Source: a virus
Strand: one strand, 5' to 3'
Virus record (IMG/VR): IMGVR_UViG_3300028025_003133
Span: 1-26,644 of that record
DNA length: 26,644 nt
Below are positions 3,668-19,982 of the stretch, one piece after another. The notes below the pieces were generated by a model. That model was not told the DNA's origin. It made no database searches and saw only the letters and a list, made by a program, of their open reading frames with translations. Position numbers and translations under genes: made by a program. Every line of letters starts with the position of its first letter. The stretch's first letter is position 1.

Positions 3668-4036
3668 TTAACAGTAACCAGCCTCAATTAGCAGTTCGGT
3701 AAGGTCTTCCAACCTCATCACAACATAAGATTCACCTAATGCTTTTTCCCCTTTACCAGGGCGCTTAACAACCAATGCAGGAACAGCCCCACCCAGACGT
3801 TCCGCTTGTTGTACCGTGTCATTAAGCCACTGACTCAACTGAAAGGATTTTTGGTTCTTACACTGAACGGCAACCTTACGAAAGGTATCCCTACGGGCAA
3901 TCCCATTGACATCACCTGTGTCGTTACCCCCTGATAAAGCAGGGCGGTGGGCGTGGATAAAACCTTTAGAAATTAAATAGTCTCTTACAAGTACTTCAAA
4001 GGATGTCCCTTTGGCTTTTGCTTTATTACTCACCAC
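3668..4036 (-). CDS. PD-(D/E)XK nuclease, Hjc-like Holliday junction resolvase candidate, 122 aa
   Basis: The layout fits a small PD-(D/E)XK nuclease: an N-terminal helix with Glu at residue 14 (KGTSFEVLVRDYL), Asp at 42 (GDVNGI), and QCK at 58-60 in VAVQCKNQKS, where Q takes the usual place of the second acidic residue. Archaeal Hjc and related phage resolvases have the same size and order. The expected role is cutting branched DNA during recombination or packaging. The start is one of two tandem GTG codons (4036 or 4033) overlapping the upstream gene's end. Restriction-like or repair nuclease roles cannot be excluded. Confidence 0.7.
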   Translation of the reverse strand: MVSNKAKAKGTSFEVLVRDYLISKGFIHAHRPALSGGNDTGDVNGIARRDTFRKVAVQCKNQKSFQLSQWLNDTVQQAERLGGAVPALVVKRPGKGEKALGESYVVMRLEDLTELLIEAGYC

Positions 4037-4265
4037 GCACCGCCTTTATCAACATTTCTTGCTCGTGTTTATTCATCAAACTAGAAAAAGGAACTAACAA
4101 TTCAGCAAGTTTAGAAATTAAGGCTGAGGCTTTGTCACGGTCTGTCCGTAGGCGTTCAATCTCATCGGCTGCTTCATCTATTGCTTGGGAAACATATTCC
4201 GCAGGCATATCGTCAGAAGAATTCCACGAAAAATCCCGTAGTCGGGTCACGATGTCGTCGGTCAT
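4026..4265 (-). CDS. Coiled-coil hypothetical protein, 79 aa
   Basis: The sequence MTDDIVTRLRDF, followed by AIDEAADEIERLRTDRDKAS, is a type common in phage accessory regions: a short N-terminal motif followed by a heptad-rich helix (about residues 25-55). No catalytic residues are seen. It overlaps the upstream nuclease gene by 4 bp (ATGA) and the downstream one by 11 bp. Function is unknown. Confidence 0.7.
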   Translation of the reverse strand: MTDDIVTRLRDFSWNSSDDMPAEYVSQAIDEAADEIERLRTDRDKASALISKLAELLVPFSSLMNKHEQEMLIKAVRGE

Positions 4266-4693
4266 GTGTCATACTCCTCATTGTTTAACAAATCAGTTAT
4301 ATGTGAAGGATACAGAATATAACCTTTTGTTGGGTTGTCTGAACCTTTTGCCAAATCTTTATATGTCAGGTATTTTTTATTAATTTCTAAATAGGTTTTT
4401 AAACGATTGACGGAAGTAATTATAAAAGCATCGGGGGAATGCATGTACACCCACCAGTGTGCTTTAGTAACATTGATGCCTGAAGGCTTCCACCCACTAC
4501 CTCGTGGGTTTTGTTCGGTCTCTACAACCATATTCCCATTTCGGTAACGGTCATACTTAACTTCAAAAGAACCTTGACTCAATGAGTTAAGGAATTGTTT
4601 AACAACCTCTTCTCCTTGATGACCAAAGGCTAAATCTTTAGTAAAATCAAACCTGTCAATATCATGGGATGGTTGATACTCGCTATTTGCCAC
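4262..4693 (-). CDS. PD-(D/E)XK-type nuclease candidate, 143 aa
   Basis: GTG at 4691-4693 is chosen because GGGAG (4701-4705) sits 7 bp upstream; an ATG at 4741 exists but has no such site and would overlap two genes. Conserved-looking features are GHQGEEVV (Glu 28/29), KYDRY (Asp 48), VVETEQN (Glu 58/60) and a Trp-rich strand TKAHWWVYM. These give the E-D-ExE order of a nuclease core, and GWKPSGINVTKAHWW resembles phage proteins annotated as endonucleases of this fold. Substrate and role are unknown. The usual Lys after the second acidic residue is unclear, so activity is uncertain. Confidence 0.6.
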   Translation of the reverse strand: MANSEYQPSHDIDRFDFTKDLAFGHQGEEVVKQFLNSLSQGSFEVKYDRYRNGNMVVETEQNPRGSGWKPSGINVTKAHWWVYMHSPDAFIITSVNRLKTYLEINKKYLTYKDLAKGSDNPTKGYILYPSHITDLLNNEEYDT

Positions 4694-5835: not shown

Positions 5836-6326
5836 GCTGTGTACTTTCCTTGTCGTCGTTCGGTAGGTGCCATAGAAATGCGACGACTCAATTCACGGCT
5901 AATGACCTGTGCTCCACGTTCACACCGTTCAAAGACTGACTCAGTTAGTTTACGAAATGCACGTGACTGTAAGTAGGCATCGGTATCTTCCATCACTTGG
6001 GGGTCTGTATCTCTACGAGCCTTAGCCAAGGTGACGGTGTCTCCCTTTGCTCCTTCTCCCCACTGGGAGATGAGGGTAACTGCCTCTGAGTACTTCTGTG
6101 TGGTAGCAGAGCGCTCTTCAGCAATCTCTGCCAATACAAGTTCTGACTTTGCATATGAACCCCATGAAATAAACTTTGTGTAAAGTTCCATCAATTCAGG
6201 GTCAGGTAGTTCATCTAAGTACATAGGCAATTCAGGGAAATCACCGTGAGGTTTGTCTGCAAGTGGAAACTTACTTAAAAAGTCACCCATGATTGGGCTA
6301 GTGGGGGCTAATGATGGTTTATTCAT
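5832..6326 (-). CDS. Hypothetical helical protein, 164 aa
   Basis: The first 45 residues are Pro-rich (MNKPSLAPTSPIMGDFLSKF, then ELPMYLDELPDPELME). The rest is strongly helical and charged (about 45-150), including YAKSELVLAEIAEERSATTQ and a basic end (RELSRRI). No family is firmly recognised. It follows the Cas4-like exonuclease with an 8-bp overlap, which suggests a part in recombination or replication. Confidence 0.7.
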   Translation of the reverse strand: MNKPSLAPTSPIMGDFLSKFPLADKPHGDFPELPMYLDELPDPELMELYTKFISWGSYAKSELVLAEIAEERSATTQKYSEAVTLISQWGEGAKGDTVTLAKARRDTDPQVMEDTDAYLQSRAFRKLTESVFERCERGAQVISRELSRRISMAPTERRQGKYTA

Positions 6327-7101
6327 TGTTATCGTCTTTCCAACATGTGTTCTTATATGAACAAGTTTTGCAAGTTTTATTTGAGGAGTCTTCTACCCAA
6401 ACTGGGCGCATTGGTGGAACACCTGACTCTAAACCTCTTATTACGTTTTTGCAACCTGAAAGAATGTCTTCAATAAGTTCTGGTTGGAACTTTACTGAGA
6501 ACTCTTTTACTTCTTGTGTGGCTTTCCATTCATACAGGAATACAGCATCGTGAATTCCTAGACAATGCATGTATAGGTTTACCTGGCGAAGGTGAGTACT
6601 AAAAGGTTTGCGAACTTTCTTCCACATGTCATCAGGGCTGGTGGCGCTTTTATAAAGTTCAAAGTCTTCCATGCGAATGGTTCCAGCGCCAACACTCTTA
6701 ATCTCAAGGATGGCTTTACCTTTGGAGTCATTGATAATGCCATCAGCATGCCCCATCAATCTGAACTCCTCATCAAGGATGGGTACTTCAACTGCCTCTA
6801 ATACACCTGCGTCTGTCAACCACTTCTGCCATTTAGCGTGAATAGCATGACCTTCAGCAAAGATGTTTAGAGTTTGAAATGACAAGGCACGGTCAGCCTT
6901 CTCGTAACCCTTAATGGTGTACCAAGATGAACGGTTGCACCAATCACGCTTACAAATCTCTGAAGGGTGCAGGTGAAGGGTATCTCTAGTGCTCTCTAGT
7001 TGTTCACGTATAAGTTGTTCTTCAACAACAGGGATAAGCCGATACTTAGAAGTTAAAGACTGCTTGTAGTTGGCTAGATGCCATGGTGTTTTTTCAGACA
7101 T
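6319..7101 (-). CDS. Cas4-like/RecB-type exonuclease with Fe-S cysteines, 260 aa
   Basis: This is a single-domain PD-(D/E)XK nuclease of the Cas4/RecB family. The active-site pieces are GHADG (Asp 120), LEIKS (Glu 133, Lys 135) and Q173-x3-Y177. The iron-sulfur ligands fit Cys 50 or 55 (SEICKRDWC) with Cys 244, 247 and 253 (TCKTCSYKNTCW). Phage members are usually given as end-processing exonucleases for recombination. Here it sits in one operon with a resolvase and RecA, which supports that reading. No CRISPR array or other cas gene is in the window, so an adaptation role is unlikely. It overlaps the upstream gene by 8 bp. Confidence 0.9.
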   Translation of the reverse strand: MSEKTPWHLANYKQSLTSKYRLIPVVEEQLIREQLESTRDTLHLHPSEICKRDWCNRSSWYTIKGYEKADRALSFQTLNIFAEGHAIHAKWQKWLTDAGVLEAVEVPILDEEFRLMGHADGIINDSKGKAILEIKSVGAGTIRMEDFELYKSATSPDDMWKKVRKPFSTHLRQVNLYMHCLGIHDAVFLYEWKATQEVKEFSVKFQPELIEDILSGCKNVIRGLESGVPPMRPVWVEDSSNKTCKTCSYKNTCWKDDNNE

Positions 7102-7795: not shown

Positions 7796-8824
7796 TCACG
7801 CTTCAATACCAAAGTGTTTCATCACGGCTACACGTAGTTCTTCTTGCATACCTAAGTCTGCACGGAAAGCCAATAGCATTGCTTCCTTACCTTGCCAACG
7901 CTGTTCACTGTAAGAGTAGTAAGCGCCAGCACGAGTAATAATGTCTACAGAAGCAGCAATGTTCACCATGTCCTTGACGGTGTCAAAATCACCAAATTCA
8001 AATCCTGGTACAGAACTGAAGTAGAAGTCAACTATAGATGACTTGTTAGGAGAGAACGTCTTGTTCTTGAGGGTACGACCTTTAATGGACTGACCAACAG
8101 TTTCATCCTTCTGCTTCAACCATTCATCACGCTTAACTTCCACACGGCAGAAGTAATGGAAGTTCTTTGCCTTGCCACCTGGGGTAGTACGAGGGTCTCC
8201 CCACATCACACCAATCTTGTCACGCCACTGGTTAATCATGATTCCTGTGCAACCACGCTCTTCATGAATCATTGAACGCTTTTGTGCTTTAGAAGCCTTA
8301 CGGAAGAATTTTCCAGTAAGACGAGCACCAAGTCCCATGGTGAATTCTTCCATAGTCTTTTCCATCTCATCACCTGGGATGAGCGCTGGAAGGGAGTCAA
8401 TAACAATCATGTCTACTGCACGAGCATCCATAACACGGATGACAAGGTCATACACCTGCTCCATGAGGTTGGTCTCTACGACCCACAAGCGGTCAAGGTC
8501 TACGCCAATAGCCTTTGCGTATTCAGGTACATATTCTTCAGCCGCAACCCACATGGCTGTGAAGTTTGGGTCAAGTGCTTGGTTAGCCGCAATGGTCTTG
8601 TATGCCATAGCAGTCTTACCTGATGACTCTTCACCAATGATTTCACTCCATTGGTTTACAGGCCATCCTCCTCCCAACATAAGGTCAAAGGCAAGGACCC
8701 CTGTGGTTATGCGGGTCATCTCTTGATTAACAGCACTCCCTTTTACAATGATGTCATCCCCATACTTCTTCTGAATAGAAGAGATGATGGAGGACAATGA
8801 TTCGTGTGTTACTTCTGGTGGCAT
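7796..8824 (-). CDS. recA: RecA/UvsX-like recombinase, 342 aa
   Basis: This is a full-length RecA-type strand-exchange ATPase: Walker A GEESSGKT (64-71), the catalytic Glu region VAAEEYVPEY (about 93-102), Walker B MIVIDSLPAL (Asp 143), and the loop-2 region INQWRDKIGVMWGDPRTTPG followed by GKAKNFHY. It is similar in length to bacterial RecA (about 350 aa) but ends MKHFGIEA, without the acidic C-terminal tail that restrains E. coli RecA. The predicted role is to pair single-stranded ends for recombination-dependent replication and repair. The resolvase-like nuclease and Cas4-like exonuclease lie downstream in the same operon. Confidence 0.95.
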   Translation of the reverse strand: MPPEVTHESLSSIISSIQKKYGDDIIVKGSAVNQEMTRITTGVLAFDLMLGGGWPVNQWSEIIGEESSGKTAMAYKTIAANQALDPNFTAMWVAAEEYVPEYAKAIGVDLDRLWVVETNLMEQVYDLVIRVMDARAVDMIVIDSLPALIPGDEMEKTMEEFTMGLGARLTGKFFRKASKAQKRSMIHEERGCTGIMINQWRDKIGVMWGDPRTTPGGKAKNFHYFCRVEVKRDEWLKQKDETVGQSIKGRTLKNKTFSPNKSSIVDFYFSSVPGFEFGDFDTVKDMVNIAASVDIITRAGAYYSYSEQRWQGKEAMLLAFRADLGMQEELRVAVMKHFGIEA

Positions 8825-9184: not shown

Positions 9185-9539
9185 ATTGTTCTTCCATATC
9201 ATCTAATTGTTCATCGGACATAATTACCCCTATGTGCCCATTCTCTAACATTTTGTTGATAAGAGCAACACTAAAGACAGTAAGTGCATTAACAAAATCT
9301 TCAGCAGGGGAAGTAATCTTATCAGTGGATTCCAGGAAGTCAACAAACCAATCGGAGGCTTCCCTGACCTCATCCAGTATCCCTGAAGACGCCACCATAA
9401 CCCATCGGGAAAGAACGTCCATAATCTCTAGTTCTTGCACTTCCTCAGAAGGTGTAGCAAATCCCATAGACCTTGCAATCTTTTGACCTTCTGTCGCAGA
9501 AAGCATTAAATAAAACATTCTCTGTTCAACTTCAAGCAT
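9177..9539 (-). CDS. Hypothetical helical protein, 120 aa
   Basis: It is all-helical in appearance, beginning MLEVEQRMFYLMLSATEGQK and ending in a very acidic tail (MSDEQLDDMEEQYD). No catalytic or metal motif is seen. It couples to the polymerase upstream by TAATG and overlaps the zinc-ribbon gene by 8 bp. An acidic C-terminus can bind SSB-type or DNA-competing partners, but that is speculation. No family is recognised. Confidence 0.7.
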   Translation of the reverse strand: MLEVEQRMFYLMLSATEGQKIARSMGFATPSEEVQELEIMDVLSRWVMVASSGILDEVREASDWFVDFLESTDKITSPAEDFVNALTVFSVALINKMLENGHIGVIMSDEQLDDMEEQYD

Positions 9540-11602
9540 TATCCTTTTGCCTCTGACCAGTTGGAAGCGTTGTGATACGAAACCATGAGGGGCACTCCCT
9601 TTATTACGTTACCATTTCCCATGGCGGTAATGAACGGGTCAATAATTGCATCCAATTCTTCGTAAGGAACAGCGGCTACCAATTCGTCATGAACCTGTAC
9701 CAGCATCTTCACATTGGTGTCTGAGAGGTCACGGGCAATGTTAATCATCGCTTGCTTACATAGGTCAGCGGCTGACCCCTGTACAACTGCGTTTACCGCC
9801 TGACGTTCAGCACGAGCACGGTTTTCTTTATCAGTGGAAGTAAGGTCAGGAAGTCTGCGCCTACGACCTGACAAGGTGGTGACATATCCCATTCTCCTGC
9901 CTTCAGCAACTACCTCTTGTTTCCAAGCAGTTAGTCCAGAGAACTGACGATAATACTCTTGAATCATCTCCTGAGCCTGCTCAAAAGGAATACCCGTAGT
10001 ACGTGCTAGTTTCCCTGGACCGCCTCCATAGGCTGTGAGGAAGTTAACGCCTTTACCAATCTGTCGCTCTTCGCTTGTTACGTCTTCTATGCTCTTCTTA
10101 AACAAGAGGGCTGCGGCACCTGTGTGAATGTCAATGTTGTTGTTAAACACATGCAATAGTTCTTTATCTTGTGAGTACATTGCCATAACCCGAAGTTCAA
10201 TTTGGTCATAGTCAGCCACAATCAAGGTGTGCCCTTCAGGTGCTACAAACAAACTACGGATGTTTGAATCTCGTGGGATGTTCTGAAGGTTGGGGTCACT
10301 AGATGACAAGCGCCCCGTTGCTGTGCGATGCAGATGGAAAGAAGGATGGAGTCTGCTTTTGTATAAACGGGGAAGCATGCCGTCAACAAAAGTTGATTTA
10401 AGTTTCTGTGTTTCTGACCACTGGATTAGAAGTTCAATCGCTGGGTGCTCAGCCTCAAGGTGTCGCAAGGTCTCTTCATCTACTGAAGGCATCCCACCCT
10501 TGGTTAACTTGTAAGGCTTTAGACCTAGCCCACCCTCACGCTTCTTGTTAAATAGAAACTCCTGCTTTTGTTTGGTGGAGTCAGGGTTAAAACCTACTGG
10601 CGTAAACTCGTGTAGTGCCAACAAGGTGTCACGCATCTTCCCATCTAACTCTTTACCCAACAGTTGCATGTTGCGGTGGTCAACGGGGATTCCTTCATTT
10701 TCCATGTGCATTAGGATGTGTAGCACTTCTGTGTCTTGGTAAAAAGAGTTTACTAAAGCAGTATCTTGCTTAACCTTTTTCCACAAGCGTGTGTACAGCA
10801 TCCATGTCCAGCGAACGTCAAGGTGTACGTAGTTAACTGCTTTGGTGAAAGGTACGGAAGTAATGAACTTACCTAGTTTCCCATCTCGTTCATACGCATT
10901 ATGTTTTCCATAGTTGTGCATGATGAGGTTCTCTAGTGAGTAAGACATAAGGTTCTCATTCACTAGATGCTGTAGCAACATGGTGTCGGCGTACAACCCT
11001 GGAGGTACTTCTCCGTAGTACTTGCAGATACTACGTGCGTCAAACTTTACGTTATGACCAATCTTTACAAGGTCACTGAAGAAAAGTGGGCGCAAAGCCT
11101 CAAAGACATCTGACCTAGACAACTGAAGAGGTGCTTCTCCGTACACAGCAGGCTTATGGTATTTAAGTTTTGCCATAGACTCTTGTCCATTTTTAAGAAT
11201 CTTGCGATAGCCAGGTGGTGGAACTGTTGAACCATCACCTATTTCTTCAGGCTCTATGACTTCACCCAGCGGATGCCCCATAGGAATAGCCCATGACTTA
11301 CCCTGTGTAGCAATGCCTATCCAAAAGACGTCATTACGTAAAGGGTCAACTGCAAGCATCCCACGGTACTTTGCTTCAAAGTTCTCGTGAGCACGGCGCT
11401 GAATCTCAGGGCTGGGGTTCTTCAAGGAAGTAACGTGCTTTTTCCACGCATTTTCCATGGCATCCACCATGTCGGGATGTCTTTCTAAGATTCCCCGTGT
11501 CTCAACGTCAAAGGCAAAAGCACCAACCTGTTGCACGTCGGCAACAAGTTGATGAATTTGCGATATTGATGTAACAACAAAGGGAGCGTCTCCCTCTGCC
11601 AT
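9539..11602 (-). CDS. polA: Family A DNA polymerase with 3'-5' exonuclease, 687 aa
   Basis: This is the replicative polymerase of the phage. The N-terminal proofreading domain has Exo I FDVETRG (Asp 32, Glu 34), Exo II GHNVKFDAR (Asn 184, Asp 188) and Exo III YVHLD (Asp 262). The polymerase domain has motif A VADYDQIELRV (Asp 464, Glu 469), motif B RQIGKGVNFLTAYGGG (Arg 513, Lys 517, Phe 521, Tyr 525) and motif C QVHDELV (Asp 639). There is no 5'-3' exonuclease domain, as in T7-type enzymes. Phe 521 corresponds to E. coli Phe 762. It starts by a 1-bp overlap with the SSB-like gene. Confidence 0.97.
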   Translation of the reverse strand: MAEGDAPFVVTSISQIHQLVADVQQVGAFAFDVETRGILERHPDMVDAMENAWKKHVTSLKNPSPEIQRRAHENFEAKYRGMLAVDPLRNDVFWIGIATQGKSWAIPMGHPLGEVIEPEEIGDGSTVPPPGYRKILKNGQESMAKLKYHKPAVYGEAPLQLSRSDVFEALRPLFFSDLVKIGHNVKFDARSICKYYGEVPPGLYADTMLLQHLVNENLMSYSLENLIMHNYGKHNAYERDGKLGKFITSVPFTKAVNYVHLDVRWTWMLYTRLWKKVKQDTALVNSFYQDTEVLHILMHMENEGIPVDHRNMQLLGKELDGKMRDTLLALHEFTPVGFNPDSTKQKQEFLFNKKREGGLGLKPYKLTKGGMPSVDEETLRHLEAEHPAIELLIQWSETQKLKSTFVDGMLPRLYKSRLHPSFHLHRTATGRLSSSDPNLQNIPRDSNIRSLFVAPEGHTLIVADYDQIELRVMAMYSQDKELLHVFNNNIDIHTGAAALLFKKSIEDVTSEERQIGKGVNFLTAYGGGPGKLARTTGIPFEQAQEMIQEYYRQFSGLTAWKQEVVAEGRRMGYVTTLSGRRRRLPDLTSTDKENRARAERQAVNAVVQGSAADLCKQAMINIARDLSDTNVKMLVQVHDELVAAVPYEELDAIIDPFITAMGNGNVIKGVPLMVSYHNASNWSEAKG

Positions 11603-13076: not shown

Positions 13077-14624
13077 TTATACCTCTGAGTGGCTTAGGAA
13101 CTCGGATAGTGTACCAAGGTTCAAGTCAAACTTACCCTGACTGTCATACCCTTTGTCAATAAACGCTTTGTTTATTTCTCGTTTTTGTTGCAACATCTCG
13201 TATTGACGTTCCTCAATGGAACCTTTCATTACGAATGATACGACTGTAACATGCGGGTGTACCGACGATAGTCGGATAATGCGGGCTTCTCTTTGGTCCA
13301 ATTTTCCAGCAGACCAAGGTAAATCGTAAGAGATAAGGTAATTGGCTTGCGGTAAGTCCACCCCGTAACCTCCTGCATCAGAGGATAAAAAGAGCCGAAC
13401 ATTATCATCGGTTGCGAACTTTTGCTTTGCAACATCTCTCTGGTCTGCGCCCATACCACCCATGAAGAGTACGCTGTCCGTAAGTCCTTTAGTTGCTTCC
13501 TGGATAATCCGTAAGTTTTTCTTAAAGAATGAGAATAGAACAACTTTATTAGTTGGGTCTTCATTTAATACATCCTCAATGTAATTGACAACTGTGTCTA
13601 GTTTGGGTGTCTTATAGGTCTCGGGGAGCCATCCTTCCGAAAGGATTCTGGAGGCGTATGCACTTCCCTCAGTGTTTTGAGTAGGGTCGTCAAACGCTTT
13701 GGCTGACTCCACCACCAGCCTAGGATTATCGCAGAGCATACGTAATACAGTAAGCCTAGACATAATTTGACCTTGTGCTTCATTTCCTTGTCCCCCGTGG
13801 TAATGCGACCAAAGGTCAAATGACCTTCCGTGGCTTGTTATTGCTTTTTGAATTTCGGCTAAAAGGTCAGCCGCAATGCGTTCATAGACTCCAGCAACGC
13901 CAGTGTCAAATTGAACAGGTATTACTTGTGTAATGACTTCAGGAAGTTGGTCCTTGATGTCATCTCGTGTTTTACGAACCATTGCTTCTGACATTGAGTC
14001 ATTGAGTTGTTTTAAGTTACGGTACCTAGTTGGTTTGCCAAAGTGGTCACGAACAATAAAAGTCCTGTCAAACACATCAAACTTACCTAGTACTGAAGTA
14101 TCTACAAATTGCATAATTGAAAACAGTTCTTCTGGTTTGTTCTCAATTGGTTGACCTGTTAATGCAAAACGGTAGTGGCACTTAGCCCCTAGTTTTTTAA
14201 GCATCTTAGAACGCTTAGAAGTAAATGATTTAATGATTGTGGCTTCATCTATAACCATGGCGTTGAACCGCATGGCTTCCCATTGCGCCAAGTCTTTAGT
14301 AAGGCTTTCAGGGTTTACAATGATGTATTGGCAACCAATAGACAAACGCCATAACTTCTCACGTTGTTTAGGGGTGCCATCAATAACAATTGCTCTAGAC
14401 GTAGTGAACTTGTTTATTTCACGAAGCCACTGGTACTTGAGACTGCTCGGAACAACTACGCACACTTTACTAATCTCATTGTCATCAATTAAAGATTCAA
14501 TAGTAGAAAGTGTTGTGGGAGTTTTACCAGCACCCATAACCATGGCAAGGAGCATCTGTCCCCGCTCTACCATTCTTTCACTTGCTTCTTGTTGAAAGGG
14601 GTACAAGGTTCCTATAAAGGTCAC
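13077..14624 (-). CDS. SNF2-type DNA helicase/translocase, about 515 aa
   Basis: This is a two-lobe superfamily 2 ATPase. Motif I is MGAGKT (about 30-35), motif Ia is VVPSSLKYQW, motif II is VIDEAT (about 116-121), motif III is ALTGQPIENK, motif V is SSDAGGYGVDLPQA and motif VI is DQREARIIRLSS. This is the SNF2/Rad54-like arrangement found in many phages, where such proteins remodel or translocate on duplex DNA during recombination. The start is taken at GTG 14624, overlapping the primase stop by 4 bp (GTGA); GTG 14633 would add three residues but lacks a ribosome binding site. Motif III has Gln where Thr is usual (LTGTP). Confidence 0.9.
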   Translation of the reverse strand: MTFIGTLYPFQQEASERMVERGQMLLAMVMGAGKTPTTLSTIESLIDDNEISKVCVVVPSSLKYQWLREINKFTTSRAIVIDGTPKQREKLWRLSIGCQYIIVNPESLTKDLAQWEAMRFNAMVIDEATIIKSFTSKRSKMLKKLGAKCHYRFALTGQPIENKPEELFSIMQFVDTSVLGKFDVFDRTFIVRDHFGKPTRYRNLKQLNDSMSEAMVRKTRDDIKDQLPEVITQVIPVQFDTGVAGVYERIAADLLAEIQKAITSHGRSFDLWSHYHGGQGNEAQGQIMSRLTVLRMLCDNPRLVVESAKAFDDPTQNTEGSAYASRILSEGWLPETYKTPKLDTVVNYIEDVLNEDPTNKVVLFSFFKKNLRIIQEATKGLTDSVLFMGGMGADQRDVAKQKFATDDNVRLFLSSDAGGYGVDLPQANYLISYDLPWSAGKLDQREARIIRLSSVHPHVTVVSFVMKGSIEERQYEMLQQKREINKAFIDKGYDSQGKFDLNLGTLSEFLSHSEV

Positions 14625-15532
14625 AGAATCCACCCAGGGATTGCAGTAGCAGTACTAATTGCGTCAAATATCTCTTCGTCTGCCATGTCACCTATGTCTT
14701 TTGCTTTTGTGTTCTTATAGTTTAACCATAAAACGCCATCATCAAATCGTGGCAATGTTTTAAACAACATCTTGTTGGCTTTTAATCCAGCCTCATCATT
14801 GTCCATTGCCACAATTACTTTAGATGCGACGGAGTTAAGCAAACTAAGTTGCTCTGTGCTGACATACGAACCAAATGTTGCTAGTCCTTGTACGCCTGTT
14901 GTAATGGACGCTAAGCGCACAACATCTAGTGGTGACTCTAGAAGTACCGCTGGTTTGTTTAAGAACTTCTCAATGCCAAACAAGGTGTGGCTCTTCTTAA
15001 TACCAATTGGGTAATTGCGAACCCAATCAGTCTTTTTAGATTGCCAACCCATTAGGTGCCCCATAGGAGACACAATCGGAATAACCCATGACTTGTTTTT
15101 AGTATCCCAACGGATGCCGTAAGAGCGTGCGATAGATGCATCTAGATTCCTGTTGTACAAATAGGATGCTGGTACTTCATCAAAACGACTGTATGAAATC
15201 CAATCAATCTCAGGTTCGGGTTCAGGAAGGTTCTCACGACCAATCCTACTAAGGCTTGAGTTAATCAGAAATGAATGAACATCAATGAGTGATGCTTCAT
15301 CACCAGTCAGCGTAGAGATTAAACCTACAAGGGTTCCACGCCCTCCACATGAATAACAAATCCATAAACCAGTCTCTGCGTTCATAGACCAAGATGGTGA
15401 CCTATCAACGTGACCAGTGCGTTCTAAGTGAACAGGACAGCGTCCTGATATTTCACGTTCACCTGCGTTAGTAACTTCAACACCAAGGTCAATTAAGACA
15501 CTTTGAATGTCAGTAGTACCAGTTGCCGTCAT
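14621..15532 (-). CDS. DNA primase, CHC2 zinc finger plus Toprim, 303 aa
   Basis: ATG 15532 is used because GAGAG lies 5 bp upstream and the longer frame from 15616 would overlap the helicase by more than 100 bp. Zinc-binding residues are Cys 32, His 35 (CPVH), Cys 59 and Cys 62 (CYSC). The Toprim core has LLESPLDVV (Glu 199) and AMDNDEAGLKA (Asp 244, Asp 246). The protein is shorter than bacterial DnaG and lacks the C-terminal helicase-binding domain; here the helicase is separate. It makes primers at the phage fork. The 23-bp overlap with the DnaB-like gene suggests coupled expression. Confidence 0.92.
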   Translation of the reverse strand: MTATGTTDIQSVLIDLGVEVTNAGEREISGRCPVHLERTGHVDRSPSWSMNAETGLWICYSCGGRGTLVGLISTLTGDEASLIDVHSFLINSSLSRIGRENLPEPEPEIDWISYSRFDEVPASYLYNRNLDASIARSYGIRWDTKNKSWVIPIVSPMGHLMGWQSKKTDWVRNYPIGIKKSHTLFGIEKFLNKPAVLLESPLDVVRLASITTGVQGLATFGSYVSTEQLSLLNSVASKVIVAMDNDEAGLKANKMLFKTLPRFDDGVLWLNYKNTKAKDIGDMADEEIFDAISTATAIPGWIL

Positions 15533-16760
15533 TGCCACTCTCGTCCACCTCTGTAAAGTCCATGTTTTCCCAATCCCATTTAATTCGTACTTCTCCCTTG
15601 GGGGCAGTACGAGCAAGGATTACTCTAATAATTGATTGGTTGTCAATGTCTGGGTCAGACTCAACACCCAGTACAAGGTCTGAGTCTTGTACGAATGATG
15701 ATGAGTAACCAATAGAGTCTGCTGTTACTTGGCGAGACTTCTTGTTACCCAGTTTCCATGACAACACTTGTGTTGTTCCCACGATGGGAATGTCAAACCG
15801 CTGTGCAAGACGTTTAAGTGAGCGTGTGATGTTTGTAAGCGCTTGCGAACTTCCTTTAGGCTCGCCATGCTCATCGTCCATGAGATACACACCATCAACA
15901 AACAAAATGCCAGGGCGGTACTGCTGAATCTTTCCAGCAATAGCACTTACTGTTGTAAGGGATGTGGAGTCTTCAGTCATGTGGAATGGGTGCATGTTCT
16001 TGCGAAGTTTAAGAACCTTCTCAATGTTTTCCATCTCACGCTTTGTCAGGTCACCTCTAATGATTCTCGTATGAGAAGTCTTGGAGATAAGGGCGTCATA
16101 ACGAGCCTCTTGTTCTTCAATACTCATTTCAAATGAAACAAACATTGGGCTGATGCCATGTTCGTGTGCAGCGTTAGCCATGATAAGACTCATCATTGAC
16201 TTTCCCTTTTTGGCTTCACCAACAAACGTAATCAACTGCTGTGGTCGTAGTCCTGCTGTAATGCGGTCAAGACCTATAAACCCTGTAGGAATACCTCGTA
16301 GAGCGTTAGGCATGTTACGCATCTCTTCGTAACGGCTTAGTCGTGCTTCCCAGTTCTGAACAATGTCAACATCTCGTAAGCGTGCTGTCTCAGTTGAGGC
16401 ACGTTGTAACCCTGCCGACAGTTCCATAAAGGCTTCATCAACAAGATTGTTGTTCAGCGCAGGCATTACTGTGCTGATGGTTTCAATTAGCCGTTGTCGT
16501 TTGTAGGAGTGAAACAACTCATCAATGAGTGCAGGGAATGGTTCCATTGAAGCGTCAGAAAGTATGACGTCTCCAAACTCTTGGTGGAAAGCACGGTCTG
16601 TTGGTACTGACCCATACTCTCTCCAATAGTTTGAAATCCACAACCACATCTTTTGTGTCTCACCTGAGAAGTGGTCGGGACGAAGACCTGCATTGATGAT
16701 TGGAGTAATGTCTGCCGACTCAATTACTTTGCTAATGATGAGATGTTCTGAGTTAGCCAT
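15510..16760 (-). CDS. dnaB: DnaB-like replicative helicase, 416 aa
   Basis: The N-terminal helical domain (about 1-110) is followed by a RecA-like motor: Walker A GEAKKGKS (181-188), the VSFEMS strand (Glu 211), Walker B ILFVDGVYLM (Asp 289), and a Gln in VGTTQVLSW. This is the DnaB/gp4 type, slightly shorter than bacterial DnaB (about 470 aa). The start is taken as ATG 16760, overlapping the preceding TGA by 1 bp; ATG 16772 would add four residues. It unwinds the phage fork and probably contacts the primase encoded next and the DnaC-like loader two genes upstream. Confidence 0.93.
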   Translation of the reverse strand: MANSEHLIISKVIESADITPIINAGLRPDHFSGETQKMWLWISNYWREYGSVPTDRAFHQEFGDVILSDASMEPFPALIDELFHSYKRQRLIETISTVMPALNNNLVDEAFMELSAGLQRASTETARLRDVDIVQNWEARLSRYEEMRNMPNALRGIPTGFIGLDRITAGLRPQQLITFVGEAKKGKSMMSLIMANAAHEHGISPMFVSFEMSIEEQEARYDALISKTSHTRIIRGDLTKREMENIEKVLKLRKNMHPFHMTEDSTSLTTVSAIAGKIQQYRPGILFVDGVYLMDDEHGEPKGSSQALTNITRSLKRLAQRFDIPIVGTTQVLSWKLGNKKSRQVTADSIGYSSSFVQDSDLVLGVESDPDIDNQSIIRVILARTAPKGEVRIKWDWENMDFTEVDESGNDGNWYY

Positions 16761-17188
16761 CAGATGGACCATGCTTTCTTGGAGTCTGCTACCGTTGCAC
16801 GGATGCCAATGATGGCGGCTTGTTCTTGCTCGGGGACATAGATAGTACGGACTGAACGCTTAAAACGCAAGTCATATGACAATTCTTCTGGATTTGCATA
16901 ACCGTAGACGGGGAGTGACACACCTTTGCGCCCAAGCCACCTGTCAATTGCATCAACAGCATCTAGTCCTAAAAAGGTATAAACCTCTGTGTCAATACCT
17001 AAACGGTCTGAATAATCTACTAAGGCTTTTAATGGGAGTTCGTGTGGTTTCCATTTGCTGAGTTCTTTATCCCAGTCGGCACCTGCACGTTGAAAGAACC
17101 TGCGCTCAGGAGGGGAAGCAAGTAACCCTTCAAAAACAACACCTTGACCAATGTCATTGAAATTTCCAATGTCATTACTTTGCATCAT
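16760..17188 (-). CDS. Hypothetical replication-module protein, about 142 aa
   Basis: I do not recognise the family. The core reads VVFEGLLASPPERRFFQRAG, then TEVYTFLGLDAVDAIDRWL and RSVRTIYVPEQEQAAIIGIR. The start is uncertain: tandem ATGs at 17188/17185 give a 14-bp overlap with the loader gene, while ATG 17221 would extend it by 11 residues; neither has a clear ribosome binding site. Its place between the loader and the helicase suggests a part in helicase loading or a replisome link. Confidence 0.65.
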   Translation of the reverse strand: MMQSNDIGNFNDIGQGVVFEGLLASPPERRFFQRAGADWDKELSKWKPHELPLKALVDYSDRLGIDTEVYTFLGLDAVDAIDRWLGRKGVSLPVYGYANPEELSYDLRFKRSVRTIYVPEQEQAAIIGIRATVADSKKAWSI

Positions 17189-17822
17189 TGAAAACCATTC
17201 GGTAGTCAGGTCCTTCAACATTTATAAAATAACAACTCTCTTGGAGAATGGATAGCAAACGCTTTCCATAAGTGCGACCAAGTTCGTTAGGGCTAAGAGA
17301 AGTTGTAACAATCGTTGTTAGTTTTTCTTCATACCGATTGTCAATCAAGGATATTAAAGCGTTACGTGCAAACTCTGTTGTTGCTCGTTCTGCTCCAAAA
17401 CCATCTAGCACTACCAAGTCAAAAGTTCTACGCATGTACTTCATCAGAAATGGGTCTGAATAGGGTTCAGGTAATTCACCATCATTACGCATTTCATCGT
17501 AAACCATGTCAACGTAACGGTCAGCAGTAATAAAGATTCCTGACAATGGGTGTGTCTCAACTGAGGCAATCAAAGCACCTTGCGCTAAGTGTGTTTTACC
17601 AACACCCGTAGAACCATAAAGAAGAAACCCCATCCCTTCTTGAACATTCTTTAAGACAGTTGTGCACCAATGATTGAGTGCATTGAACGCATCAGTGTCT
17701 CCTGCTTCGTAGTCATAAGTTGACAACGTCTTGCCTTGGTAACGGGCAGGTATGCGAAGGTTCTTTAAACGTTCGTCTTTGCTCCTGTTTTGCCAATACT
17801 TGTTGCTATGCCATTCACTCAT
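17175..17822 (-). CDS. dnaC: DnaC/IstB-like ATPase, phage helicase loader, 215 aa
   Basis: This is an AAA+ ATPase of the DnaC/DnaI type. Walker A is GSTGVGKT (70-77), Walker B is DLVVLDGFGAE (Asp 140), sensor 1 is TTIVTTSLSP, and an Arg near the C-terminus (GRTYGKRLLSIL) fits an arginine finger region. The length is typical of phage loaders. It very likely places the DnaB-like helicase encoded two genes downstream. The neighbouring upstream genes (initiator and a 140-aa protein) complete a lambda O/P-type arrangement. The start overlaps the upstream stop by 8 bp. IstB-like transposition is unlikely because no transposase is present. Confidence 0.9.
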   Translation of the reverse strand: MSEWHSNKYWQNRSKDERLKNLRIPARYQGKTLSTYDYEAGDTDAFNALNHWCTTVLKNVQEGMGFLLYGSTGVGKTHLAQGALIASVETHPLSGIFITADRYVDMVYDEMRNDGELPEPYSDPFLMKYMRRTFDLVVLDGFGAERATTEFARNALISLIDNRYEEKLTTIVTTSLSPNELGRTYGKRLLSILQESCYFINVEGPDYRMVFNDAK

Positions 17823-18237
17823 TGTTACTCATTAATCGTGGGTCAATCTTGGGACCATCGTAGGGGATGTTTTCTTCAACGGTGCCAACTTTTTTAGCCA
17901 AGGAATCAAGGCGACCAATGAAAGCCTTCCATGCTGGTATCCCATCCGTCAATGGTTTGATATTTATATCTTTATGAAACTGTGTAATCATTGCCCTGAT
18001 GTCATCGTGTGTTCTTCCTGTTTCAAGGATTGTGTTAAATGCTTTCATCATGGCTGGAGCATTTACTTGGGAGTTCATGAGATTTTCCGTGTCCATCAAA
18101 AGTTGGTCTCTGAATTCGTAGACCAAAGACGCCAAGGTGTTCTTTTGTTTTGGTTTCTTTTTTGAAGTGTCTTGTGCTGGGGCGTCTGGGTCGGAGCCAA
18201 AGGTTAAGCCCCAGTCATCTTGCTGTCGTGGTTTCAT
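17815..18237 (-). CDS. Hypothetical replication protein with KIDPRLMS tail, 140 aa
   Basis: Residues 1-35 are polar and basic (SKKKPKQKNTLASL). The middle is helical (about 40-110). It ends GPKIDPRLMSNNE, which shares KIDPRLMS with the end of the upstream initiator although the codons differ. That peptide could be a docking tail for a common partner, such as the loader or helicase; this is inference. It starts in an ATGA overlap with the initiator gene. No catalytic motif is seen. Confidence 0.7.
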   Translation of the reverse strand: MKPRQQDDWGLTFGSDPDAPAQDTSKKKPKQKNTLASLVYEFRDQLLMDTENLMNSQVNAPAMMKAFNTILETGRTHDDIRAMITQFHKDINIKPLTDGIPAWKAFIGRLDSLAKKVGTVEENIPYDGPKIDPRLMSNNE

Positions 18238-18701
18238 GACATCAACCTTGGGTCTATCTTTCCTAATTTTCCCCTTCTAGTTTGTTTATTCTTGTTTGTT
18301 ATTCTTATTTGGGTAGCACCCCCGCTACCCTCGGGGGTAGCACCCGTGCTACTACTGGGTAGCGCCCCCGCTACCCCTAATGGGGAGGGTGGCACACCTG
18401 CTACCCCTAAATAATTAGGGTTATTGAAGTTCACCAAGTACTCATTTGGGAGGCTTCTACCGTTCTTGGATTGGCTCCGTTTTATAAGAACACCGAGGTC
18501 AACCAGTTTGTTAACTGACCGAATTACCGTGGTTCGGTGGTAGCCAGTTTTCTGAGCCACGTGGTCATAGGTGGTCCATAGAGACTGCGTTTTGCCGTTC
18601 ATGTAGCAAAGCATCTCTAGTAAAACATCCGTCGTTGTGGCGTCTCCACGCAAGTATTCCCTAAGCCACGTAGGGTATTGAAGGAAAGGTCCGTCAGCCA
18701 T
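18234..18701 (-). CDS. Winged-helix replication initiator (lambda O-like), 155 aa
   Basis: ATG 18701 is used because AAGGAG stands 6 bp upstream and a promoter lies at 18727-18754. Residues 20-95 form a winged helix (LWTTYDHVAQKTGYHRTTVI, then RSVNKLVDLGVLIKRS). A Gly/Pro/Ser linker (99-131) is encoded by the four iterons, then a basic segment (ITNKNKQTRRGKLG) leads to the final KIDPRLMS. This matches lambda O in plan: N-terminal DNA binding, origin inside the gene, C-terminal partner contact. It should bind the iterons and recruit the loader-helicase. A plain transcription regulator is the alternative. Confidence 0.8.
   Translation of the reverse strand: MADGPFLQYPTWLREYLRGDATTTDVLLEMLCYMNGKTQSLWTTYDHVAQKTGYHRTTVIRSVNKLVDLGVLIKRSQSKNGRSLPNEYLVNFNNPNYLGVAGVPPSPLGVAGALPSSSTGATPEGSGGATQIRITNKNKQTRRGKLGKIDPRLMS
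18250..18412. other. Putative phage replication origin inside the initiator gene
   Basis: Four palindromic iterons (18311-18406) stand next to an AT-rich tract at 18278-18310 (27 of 33 bases are A or T, with almost all pyrimidines on the plus strand). Order along the gene is wing domain, iterons, AT-rich tract, as in lambda ori within O. The iterons are the likely initiator sites and the AT-rich tract the likely unwinding element. The evidence is the sequence layout plus the initiator and loader genes around it; no function is measured. Confidence 0.7.
18311..18406. repeat. Four tandem 20-bp palindromic iterons, gggtagc-N6-gctaccc
   Basis: The copies are 18311-18330, 18335-18354, 18357-18376 and 18387-18406. 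Copies 1 and 3 are perfect (gggtagc-N6-gctaccc). Copy 2 ends gctacta and copy 4 begins gggtggc. Centre-to-centre distances are 24, 22 and 30 bp, so they lie close to a two- to three-turn spacing. The six-base centres differ, as expected if the arms are the bound part. They sit in the linker codons of the initiator. Confidence 0.8.
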
Positions 18702-19282: not shown

Positions 19283-19548
19283 TGCCAGCAAAGAAAGACC
19301 CACGCTTAGAGCGTGCAGGTGTTTCAGGTTTTAATAAACCAAAGGCAACACCCGACCACCCAACCAAATCACACATTGTTGTTGCTAAAGAAGGTGACCA
19401 GATTAAAACTATTCGTTTTGGTCAACAAGGTGTGTCAGGTTCTCCTGACGGGTCTGCCCGTAACAAGGCATTTAAAGACCGTCATGCAAAGAATATCGCT
19501 AAAGGCAAAATGAGCGCCGCTTATTGGGCAAACAAGGAGAAGTGGTGA
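19282..19548 (+). CDS. Conserved phage protein of unknown function, 88 aa
   Basis: The sequence MPAKKDPRLERAGVSGFNKP and the parts TKSHIVVAKEGDQIKTIRFG and KNIAKGKMSAAYWANKEKW are those of a small basic protein that I recognise from cyanophage and marine phage genomes, usually called hypothetical. The core has a strand pattern (HIVVAKEGDQIKTIRFGQQG) and the ends are basic. It lies between the membrane protein and the Dps-like gene. A virion or DNA-associated role is possible. The stop overlaps the next GTG by 4 bp. Confidence 0.75.
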   Translation: MPAKKDPRLERAGVSGFNKPKATPDHPTKSHIVVAKEGDQIKTIRFGQQGVSGSPDGSARNKAFKDRHAKNIAKGKMSAAYWANKEKW

Positions 19549-19982
19549 GCACACTAACTAACGACCTCAAAACATTGCTGGCTGACTCTGTCACCATGTA
19601 CTTTGTTGCCCATGGGTATCATTGGAACGTAGAGGGCGCTGACTTCAGTCAGTATCATTCTTTGTTTGCTGACATCTATGAAGATGTATATTCCAGCATT
19701 GACACCATTGCCGAAGACCTACGCAAACTAGACGAGTATGCACCTTTCACCCTGAGCAAGTTCATTGACCTCAGAACGGTTGAAAGTGTTGAAGTGGCCC
19801 CTAACCCCAAAGCAATGGCAAAAGCCCTGCTAAAGGTCAATGAGGGGGTTCTCGTGACAATTGGCAAGGCTTTTGCTTCGGCTAATAAAGCCAATGAACA
19901 GGGTATTGCTAATTTCTTGGCAGAGCGTGATGACATGCACAAGAAATGGCGCTGGCAGTTAACTGCCTCCACTAAGTCCTAG
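19545..19982 (+). CDS. Dps-like ferritin protein, 145 aa
   Basis: GTG 19545 is used because AAGGAG (19534-19539) lies 5 bp before it. The Dps ferroxidase set is present at exact family spacing: His 26 (HWN), His 38, Asp 53 and Glu 57 (SIDTIAEDLR), as for E. coli H51, H63, D78 and E82. The helical bundle runs the full length, ending FLAERDDMHKKWRWQL. Dps proteins form 12-mers that oxidise and store iron and can shield DNA. A phage copy might protect DNA or limit oxidative damage. It overlaps the convergent leftward gene by 24 bp. Confidence 0.85.
   Translation: MSTLTNDLKTLLADSVTMYFVAHGYHWNVEGADFSQYHSLFADIYEDVYSSIDTIAEDLRKLDEYAPFTLSKFIDLRTVESVEVAPNPKAMAKALLKVNEGVLVTIGKAFASANKANEQGIANFLAERDDMHKKWRWQLTASTKS

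Follow-up and report, generated by a model that had tools for sequence, protein, structure and literature searches.

A putative replication origin within the linker of its own initiator gene in a family of uncultivated phages

A replication origin located inside the gene of its own initiator is known in kind, since both phage lambda and phage SPP1 have one. The lambda O protein is described as an N-terminal DNA-binding domain followed by a flexible linker, behind which a C-terminal P-binding domain is thought to lie, and each iteron is bound by O as a dimer (PMC6022878). In lambda, an A/T-rich sequence of 38 bp adjoins the four iterons (PMC3349717), and six iterons are described for Stx phages (PMC7466680). 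In SPP1, oriL lies within gene 38 and comprises origin repeats and an A/T-rich unwinding element; this phage provides its own loader and DnaB-type helicase (gp39 and gp40) and relies on the host primase and replisome (PMC6316719). In plasmid RK2, the A/T-rich element of the origin is itself made of repeats (PMC5043065). Iteron plasmid origins (RK2, P1, and F) resemble the locus described below in that repeated initiator sites accompany an A/T-rich element. In plasmids, however, the iterons are as a rule found outside the initiator gene, and the initiators belong to other families.

The DNA analysed here (hereafter, the window) is a viral stretch of 26,644 bp. Its initiator gene (18234-18701, minus strand) encodes a protein of 155 aa that, according to Pfam and PHROG profiles and an AlphaFold2 model, comprises a winged-helix DNA-binding domain (approx. 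residues 11-95; 18417-18671, minus strand), a linker, and a short C-terminal tail, KIDPRLMS (18237-18260, minus strand). A putative recognition helix falls within residues 53-66, GYHRTTVIRSVNKL (inside 18417-18671, minus strand). Within the codons of the linker lie four sites of 20 bp, each with arms GGGTAGC/GCTACCC around a 6-bp spacer. A first-pass annotation, made from sequence alone, had read them as four palindromes of exactly this form; all four are present where it had located them, but only two are perfect. In gene order (minus strand), iteron 1 (18387-18406) has one mismatch to the 20-bp consensus, iteron 2 (18357-18376) is perfect, iteron 3 (18335-18354) has two mismatches and a codon phase unlike that of iterons 1 and 2, and iteron 4 (18311-18330), again perfect, adjoins an A/T tract; the starts are 30, 22, and 24 bp apart. 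Owing to the two codon phases, the first two copies encode the peptides GVAGVPPS and GVAGALPS and the last two SSSTGATP and EGSGGATQ. The placement of the array and the A/T tract in linker codons of a winged-helix gene was also correctly recognised at first pass, the linker corresponding to model residues 97-149, for which pLDDT is below 50 (the alignment underlying the model has only 16 rows). The 10 bp separating iterons 1 and 2 (18377-18386) may hold another element.

We consider it probable (approx. 0.83) that the four palindromic sites and the adjoining A/T tract constitute the replication origin of this phage, a reading that is drawn from comparison of sequences. The sites themselves were computed directly. 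When up to three mismatches are allowed, the consensus has four matches in the 26,644-bp window compared with 0.60 expected, and 0 of 100 shuffles reach four. Four consensus sites with at most two mismatches were found in none of 20,000 synonymous versions of the gene drawn from the codon usage of the window with the protein held fixed (mean 0.09, maximum 2), nor in any of 20,000 shuffles of the initiator gene's own synonymous codons (maximum 3). Among 522 segments of 200 nt from the window outside the array, one has two sites and none has more; the same type of segment from 14 related loci (n = 1335) yields 25 with at least three sites, and their coordinates fall over the initiator gene.

The A/T tract, in which we propose to see the unwinding element, is located exactly at 18278-18310 (minus strand); it has 27 A/T in 33 bp, as had been noted at the outset, and is A-rich on the gene strand. 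It contains the element AAGAATAA twice, at 18299-18306 and, in a different codon phase, at 18286-18293 (both on the minus strand). A/T content alone is not special, because equally A/T-rich 33-mers form six clusters in the window, this tract among them, and AAGAATAA is not distinctive by count, with four occurrences in the window and 7 of 100 shuffles reaching four. The argument rests on position, on repetition in two phases, and on conservation. In the A/T stretch after the last site, AAGARTA, an element picked post hoc after the sequences had been inspected, occurs on average 1.63 times per locus versus 0.21 in the synonymous null (59 loci). It is present at least once in 50 of these loci and at least twice in 44, of which 42 have it in two codon phases; it is absent from nine, one of them cut by a contig end. 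Across the family, the array is directly followed by an A/T-rich stretch that in most cases contains the repeated element.

That lambda O carries its iterons and A/T region in the same place is borne out by the annotated lambda record, which shows the same layout. Each of the two phages has four inverted-repeat iterons within the linker part of its initiator gene, read in two codon phases here and in three in lambda (0, 2, 2, and 1), and an A/T stretch that is A-rich on the gene strand lies on their 3' side (in lambda, 45 nt with 76% A/T). Iteron starts are 20, 24, and 23 bp apart in lambda, a spacing to be compared with 30, 22, and 24 bp here. The iterons differ in length (20 bp here, 18 bp in lambda), and their sequences are unrelated. 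Used as a control, the array scan described below recovers three of the four lambda iterons at half-site spacings of 5, 7, and 9, whereas a spacing of 6 finds only one. SPP1 resembles the window phage in its in-gene origin and in having a phage-encoded loader and DnaB-type helicase near the initiator, but differs in its second origin, oriR, and in repeats that are described as direct.

A scan of viral contigs found 12 close homologues of the initiator (72-97% identity), and a wider search gave relatives (80 of 88, among the matches listed) that, together with the window and after identical linkers had been merged, represent 62 distinct linkers, four of which are cut by contig ends. Scanned for 6-bp half-sites spaced 6 bp apart, 42 of these linkers have four sites, 17 have three, one has two, and two have one. 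The first-pass annotation had made its reading depend on whether relatives with the same initiator keep the repeats: they do, at least three sites being found in 59 of the 62, compared with a mean of 0.86 in the synonymous null. In 58 of the 62, the observed number of sites is reached by at most 2 of 200 synonymous resamplings, and of the 59 arrays that have three sites or more, 58 are read in two or more codon phases; as the sequences are related, these locus counts are not independent. Among the linkers scored below three, L142 really has four sites, three of which are hybrid (GGTAGC or AGTAGC on the left, GACACC on the right), and it lies on the same contig as L044; L202 is cut by a contig end, and L196 has one site and a truncated initiator gene. 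In the L196 region (4001-4600), the initiator frame ends at 116 aa, and the usual tail is visible by eye further on in another frame. Either a deletion between repeats or an assembly collapse would account for the one-iteron array of L196.

In contigs searched with exact patterns, the site of the window's clade is confined to the initiator gene (6 of 6 contigs of that clade, including contigs of 94.5 kb and 72.5 kb). The other site type was found in the initiator gene in all seven searched contigs of other lineages, with one extra copy elsewhere in G011 and in G012; in G001, it also occurs once outside the initiator gene. These out-of-gene copies of GGTGTC-N6-GACACC (G001, 53114-53131; G011, 66390-66407; G012, 2069-2086) have a similar spacer with a GTTGC core and are perhaps a separate conserved site.

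Conservation at the DNA level beyond that of the protein was also computed directly, from same-amino-acid codons in seven sequences, the window among them, out of 11 distinct linkers in its clade. Synonymous differences amount to 55% in the helix-turn-helix (HTH) part (n = 1449), 6.9% in the iteron arms (n = 335), 38.5% in the spacers (n = 96), 7.9% in the A/T tract (n = 229), and 14.7% in the tail (n = 143), and there are none in the 78 comparisons of codons between sites; owing to the relatedness of the sequences, these comparisons, too, are not independent of one another. Amino-acid differences, in the same order, are 19%, 20%, 43%, 25%, and 12%, with 7% between sites. In the arms, amino-acid change is similar to that in the HTH part and synonymous change is far lower, so that the encoded protein drifts there much as it does in the HTH part but the DNA is held. 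Synonymous changes do not, then, freely break the palindrome arms, which was the second point on which the reading had been made to depend.

The half-sites themselves differ between lineages. The commonest is GGTAGC in the six-member group that includes the window, GGTAGT in L006-L010, and elsewhere mostly RGTGTC, with some RGTGAC and, in L184, AGTATC. The site-by-site list of half-sites was fitted by eye and leaves out four extra sites with two or three mismatches (one in L029, two in L037, and one in L038). The putative recognition helix reads HRTT..R in the GGTAGC group, HRTT..K in L006-L010, [SDN][RK][RS]T in most other lineages, and SRIT in L184, so that the half-sites appear to change along with recognition-helix residues. 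A tree built from 49 distinct domains recovers the GGTAGC group as one clade (96/89) inside a GGTAGY clade (93/97) and places L184 among the GTC-type rows; the tree label of L142 is a placeholder, as the symmetric-array scan had scored none there. At base 4 of the half-site, A predominates in lineages with T or I at residue 57 and G in those with R or S. Counter-examples are L044/L142 and the fourth site of L038, where residue 57 is S and some left arms nevertheless have A at this base. Because there are two departures in all, a recognition code linking residue 57 to base 4 should be regarded as a hypothesis. In L044 (260-757, on the contig of L142), three of the four iterons combine the two types of half-site, as if between specificities.

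As for the initiator itself, the best-scoring families are those of replication initiation proteins (PHROG_270, 4e-14; the O-like PHROG_678, 1e-9; also PHROG_391), together with Pfam HTH_36 (E = 9.4e-8). The DnaD family has a winged-helix fold as well, and its structure 2v79_B (Z 7.9, 101 aligned, rmsd 5.4) is one of many fold matches of equal score. By profile, the PHROG_186 DnaD-like helicase loader matches at 7e-5, but Pfam DnaD_N (E = 0.076) reaches 13.7 bits versus a cut-off of 27, and the PHROG replication-initiation families score much better. Fold comparison otherwise returns generic winged helices, mostly transcription factors, and the best match by sequence among solved structures is a transcriptional regulator (E = 0.0023). 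No match to the initiator was found by tblastn in the phage collection at 1e-3, and 0 of 80 pattern-matched stretches from bacterial and archaeal genome contigs encode a relative of it. Behind the winged helix, there are only a linker of approx. 60 residues, which is modelled with low confidence, abounds in Gly, Pro, Ser, and Thr, and is in part repetitive as a protein, and the short tail. With 155 aa compared with 299 aa in lambda O, the protein has no C-terminal loader-binding domain of lambda-O size, and for this reason we do not file it as a lambda O protein. The partner function may instead sit in the initiator tail or in a separate protein of 140 aa encoded by the next gene.

This gene (17815-18237, minus strand) lies between those of the initiator and of a DnaC-like helicase loader (17175-17822, minus strand; PHROG_50, 6e-40; Pfam IstB_IS21, 2e-11), which was thus correctly described at first pass as lying two genes downstream of the initiator; in lambda, by contrast, the gene that directly follows O encodes P. 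After the loader come a 153-aa protein of no assigned function, a DnaB-type replicative helicase (15510-16772, minus strand; Pfam DnaB_C, 1.6e-28; PHROG_19, 3.6e-60), a DNA primase with zinc ribbon and Toprim (14621-15616, minus strand; PHROG_47, 1.6e-38), and an SNF2-type helicase (13077-14633); further downstream follow a single-strand-binding-like protein, a DNA polymerase of family A that has a 3'-5' exonuclease domain (9539-11602, minus strand; Pfam DNA_pol_A, 1.5e-109), and a RecA/UvsX-like protein (7796-8824). The statement that the phage brings its own helicase, primase, and polymerase, unlike lambda, is upheld by the DnaB-type, Toprim, and family A genes. As SPP1 already has an in-gene origin, a loader, and a helicase, it is, among these enzymes, the primase and the polymerase that go beyond SPP1. 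The window also contains a weak match to Cas4/PD-(D/E)XK-like nucleases (6319-7101) and a PDDEXK_15 phage endonuclease (3668-4036). A Ferritin/Dps-like gene (19527-19982, plus strand; Pfam Ferritin, 2e-16) sits amid phage structural and replication genes. Among the PolA matches listed, the top ones are Streptomyces phages at approx. 32%, which is too weak to name a host.

The 140-aa protein, a candidate adaptor, belongs to no known family (no Pfam match at E<=0.1; best PHROG 0.024), and comparison by sequence with solved structures gave no convincing match. Its predicted model (mean pLDDT 65) resembles lambda P (Z 6.3, 79 aligned, rmsd 2.9) and the C-terminal part of DnaD (Z 5.7, 67 aligned, rmsd 3.2), with ties to AAA+ and designed proteins; such Z values are common, so these fold matches are a lead only. 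Its C-terminal end, PKIDPRLMSNNE, includes the same peptide, KIDPRLMS (17827-17850, minus strand), as that in the initiator ending, GKIDPRLMS. The neighbour gene was located by rule for 52 of the 58 initiators with a complete frame, and the tails of initiator and neighbour resemble each other in most relatives; in L188, for example, YDDLEVDGRLK is paired with YDDLQVDIRLLPD. For 24 representatives, the alignment total of tails with their own partners is 632 compared with a shuffled mean of 472 and maximum of 580 (0 of 20,000 shuffles reach it), a test that is inflated by shared descent; a control with residue-shuffled tails has a mean of 353. Five of the 24 tail pairs score below their own mean with other partners, and in 15 of the 52 pairs the neighbour is without such a tail (L145, L147, L148, L151, L152, L155, L158, L171, L172, L174, L182, L184, L185, L196, and L200). 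From these comparisons, we infer that the shared tail is a candidate docking peptide for a common partner.

If the array is the origin, its use might be pictured as follows. The 155-aa protein would bind each 20-bp site as a dimer, with one recognition helix per half-site, as is suggested by the symmetry of the sites, the half-site statistics, and the correlation between helix and half-site. Four such dimers, on sites whose starts are 22-30 bp apart, would form a nucleoprotein complex that, by analogy with lambda, could melt the A/T tract with its AAGARTA repeats. The complex, probably together with the 140-aa product, would then recruit the DnaC-like loader and the DnaB-type helicase of the phage, followed by its own primase and polymerase, an order proposed on the basis of gene order and protein families. 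A more specific version, which we put forward tentatively and at somewhat less than even odds, is that of a split lambda O: a 155-aa protein without the partner domain would keep the predicted DNA binding and the origin, and a separate 140-aa adaptor, weakly lambda-P/DnaD-like in its predicted fold, would have the same C-terminal docking peptide (approx. [VI]D-x-RL). Both tails would dock on one receptor, either the loader or the helicase, and co-vary in most lineages, which would amount to twin-tag recruitment of the helicase. In parallel, the half-sites of the array would have switched (RGTGTC versus GGTAGY, with AGTATC as a second departure) together with helix residues 55, 57, and 61, and hybrid arrays such as that of L044 would be possible intermediates.

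Palindromes in a coding sequence could also be of use as RNA hairpins or DNA cruciforms, for example as an element of the initiator mRNA that affects its translation or stability. The array does fold better than all of 200 shuffles, both as transcript (z -2.9) and as DNA strand (z -3.6). Within sites, pairing of the outermost bases is a little more frequent than between sites (65% versus 60%), and inner spacer pairs are complementary in 1.05 of 3 cases versus approx. 0.75 by chance. However, over 219 sites in 59 loci, arms form 1277 Watson-Crick pairs with their own partner compared with 1273.7 after shuffling within loci (603 of 2000 shuffles are as high), although this test is weakened because the scan itself chose sites with both arms near one half-site. 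Moreover, in the hybrid sites of L044/L142 (GGTAGC-N6-GACACC), some stem pairs are lost but each arm is still a known half-site. On balance, binding of a dimer to a common half-site appears to fit better, and a hairpin function seems very unlikely. Still less can be said for the notion that a repetitive protein linker has given rise to the DNA repeats as a by-product. The linker is indeed rich in Gly, Pro, Ser, and Thr, and weaker measures of the array are occasionally reached by resampling under the two codon nulls (two perfect palindromes in 3 and 19, and eight half-sites in 3 and 57, of 20,000). Yet no resampling gives four consensus sites, 58 of the 62 linkers exceed the synonymous null, the motif encodes different peptides in its two codon phases, and codons in the HTH part show eight times as much synonymous change as those in the arms, so that this explanation can for practical purposes be set aside.

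It might be argued instead that the array serves in partition or packaging, or as a transcription operator, and lies in the initiator gene by chance, as palindromic arrays bound by winged-helix proteins are common as operators and partition sites. Such a role is highly improbable for an array that occupies the 3' part of the gene, far from the gene's expected own promoter, that has stayed within this gene in 59 of the 62 distinct linkers, and whose host gene belongs to replication-initiation families and is near those of the loader and helicase. An unlikely reading, too, although one with more to recommend it, is that the array is a real initiator-binding site with a part in copy control or autoregulation or as a second origin, and not the main origin. 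SPP1 has both oriL and oriR (PMC6316719), and plasmids carrying the lambda iterons together with oop transcription inhibit lambda replication (PMC3349717). GC skew, which had been suggested as a check on the origin, lends it no support: neither the window nor four long contigs have a consistent extremum at the array, and a detrended extremum lies within 3 kb of it in only one of the four (G005; G007 was read over 60 of its 61 kb). Against this reading stands the A/T-rich stretch, mostly with its repeated element, that is found directly beside the array throughout the family; in addition, the exact-pattern search, which would miss divergent copies, finds no second array of the clade's site. The skew result, the single iteron and truncated frame of L196, the nine of 59 loci without AAGARTA, and the generic nature of the fold matches count against the array being the origin.

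Among the matches listed in the open-licence literature, no title concerns in-gene origins of the phage family to which the window belongs. The variant features of this system are the lack of a C-terminal domain in the initiator, the twin tails, and a fuller phage replisome. The in-gene origin of lambda and SPP1 is thereby probably extended to a family of uncultivated phages, and the window phage also encodes a primase and a family A polymerase. The 62 distinct linkers form a natural series in which one stretch of DNA serves for coding, for several predicted binding sites, and as a proposed unwinding element, and many relatives keep this layout while the recognition sequence changes. The joint change of half-site and recognition helix makes the switching of specificity between initiator and origin testable with natural pairs, and the twin tails suggest a simple candidate link among initiator, adaptor, and loader.
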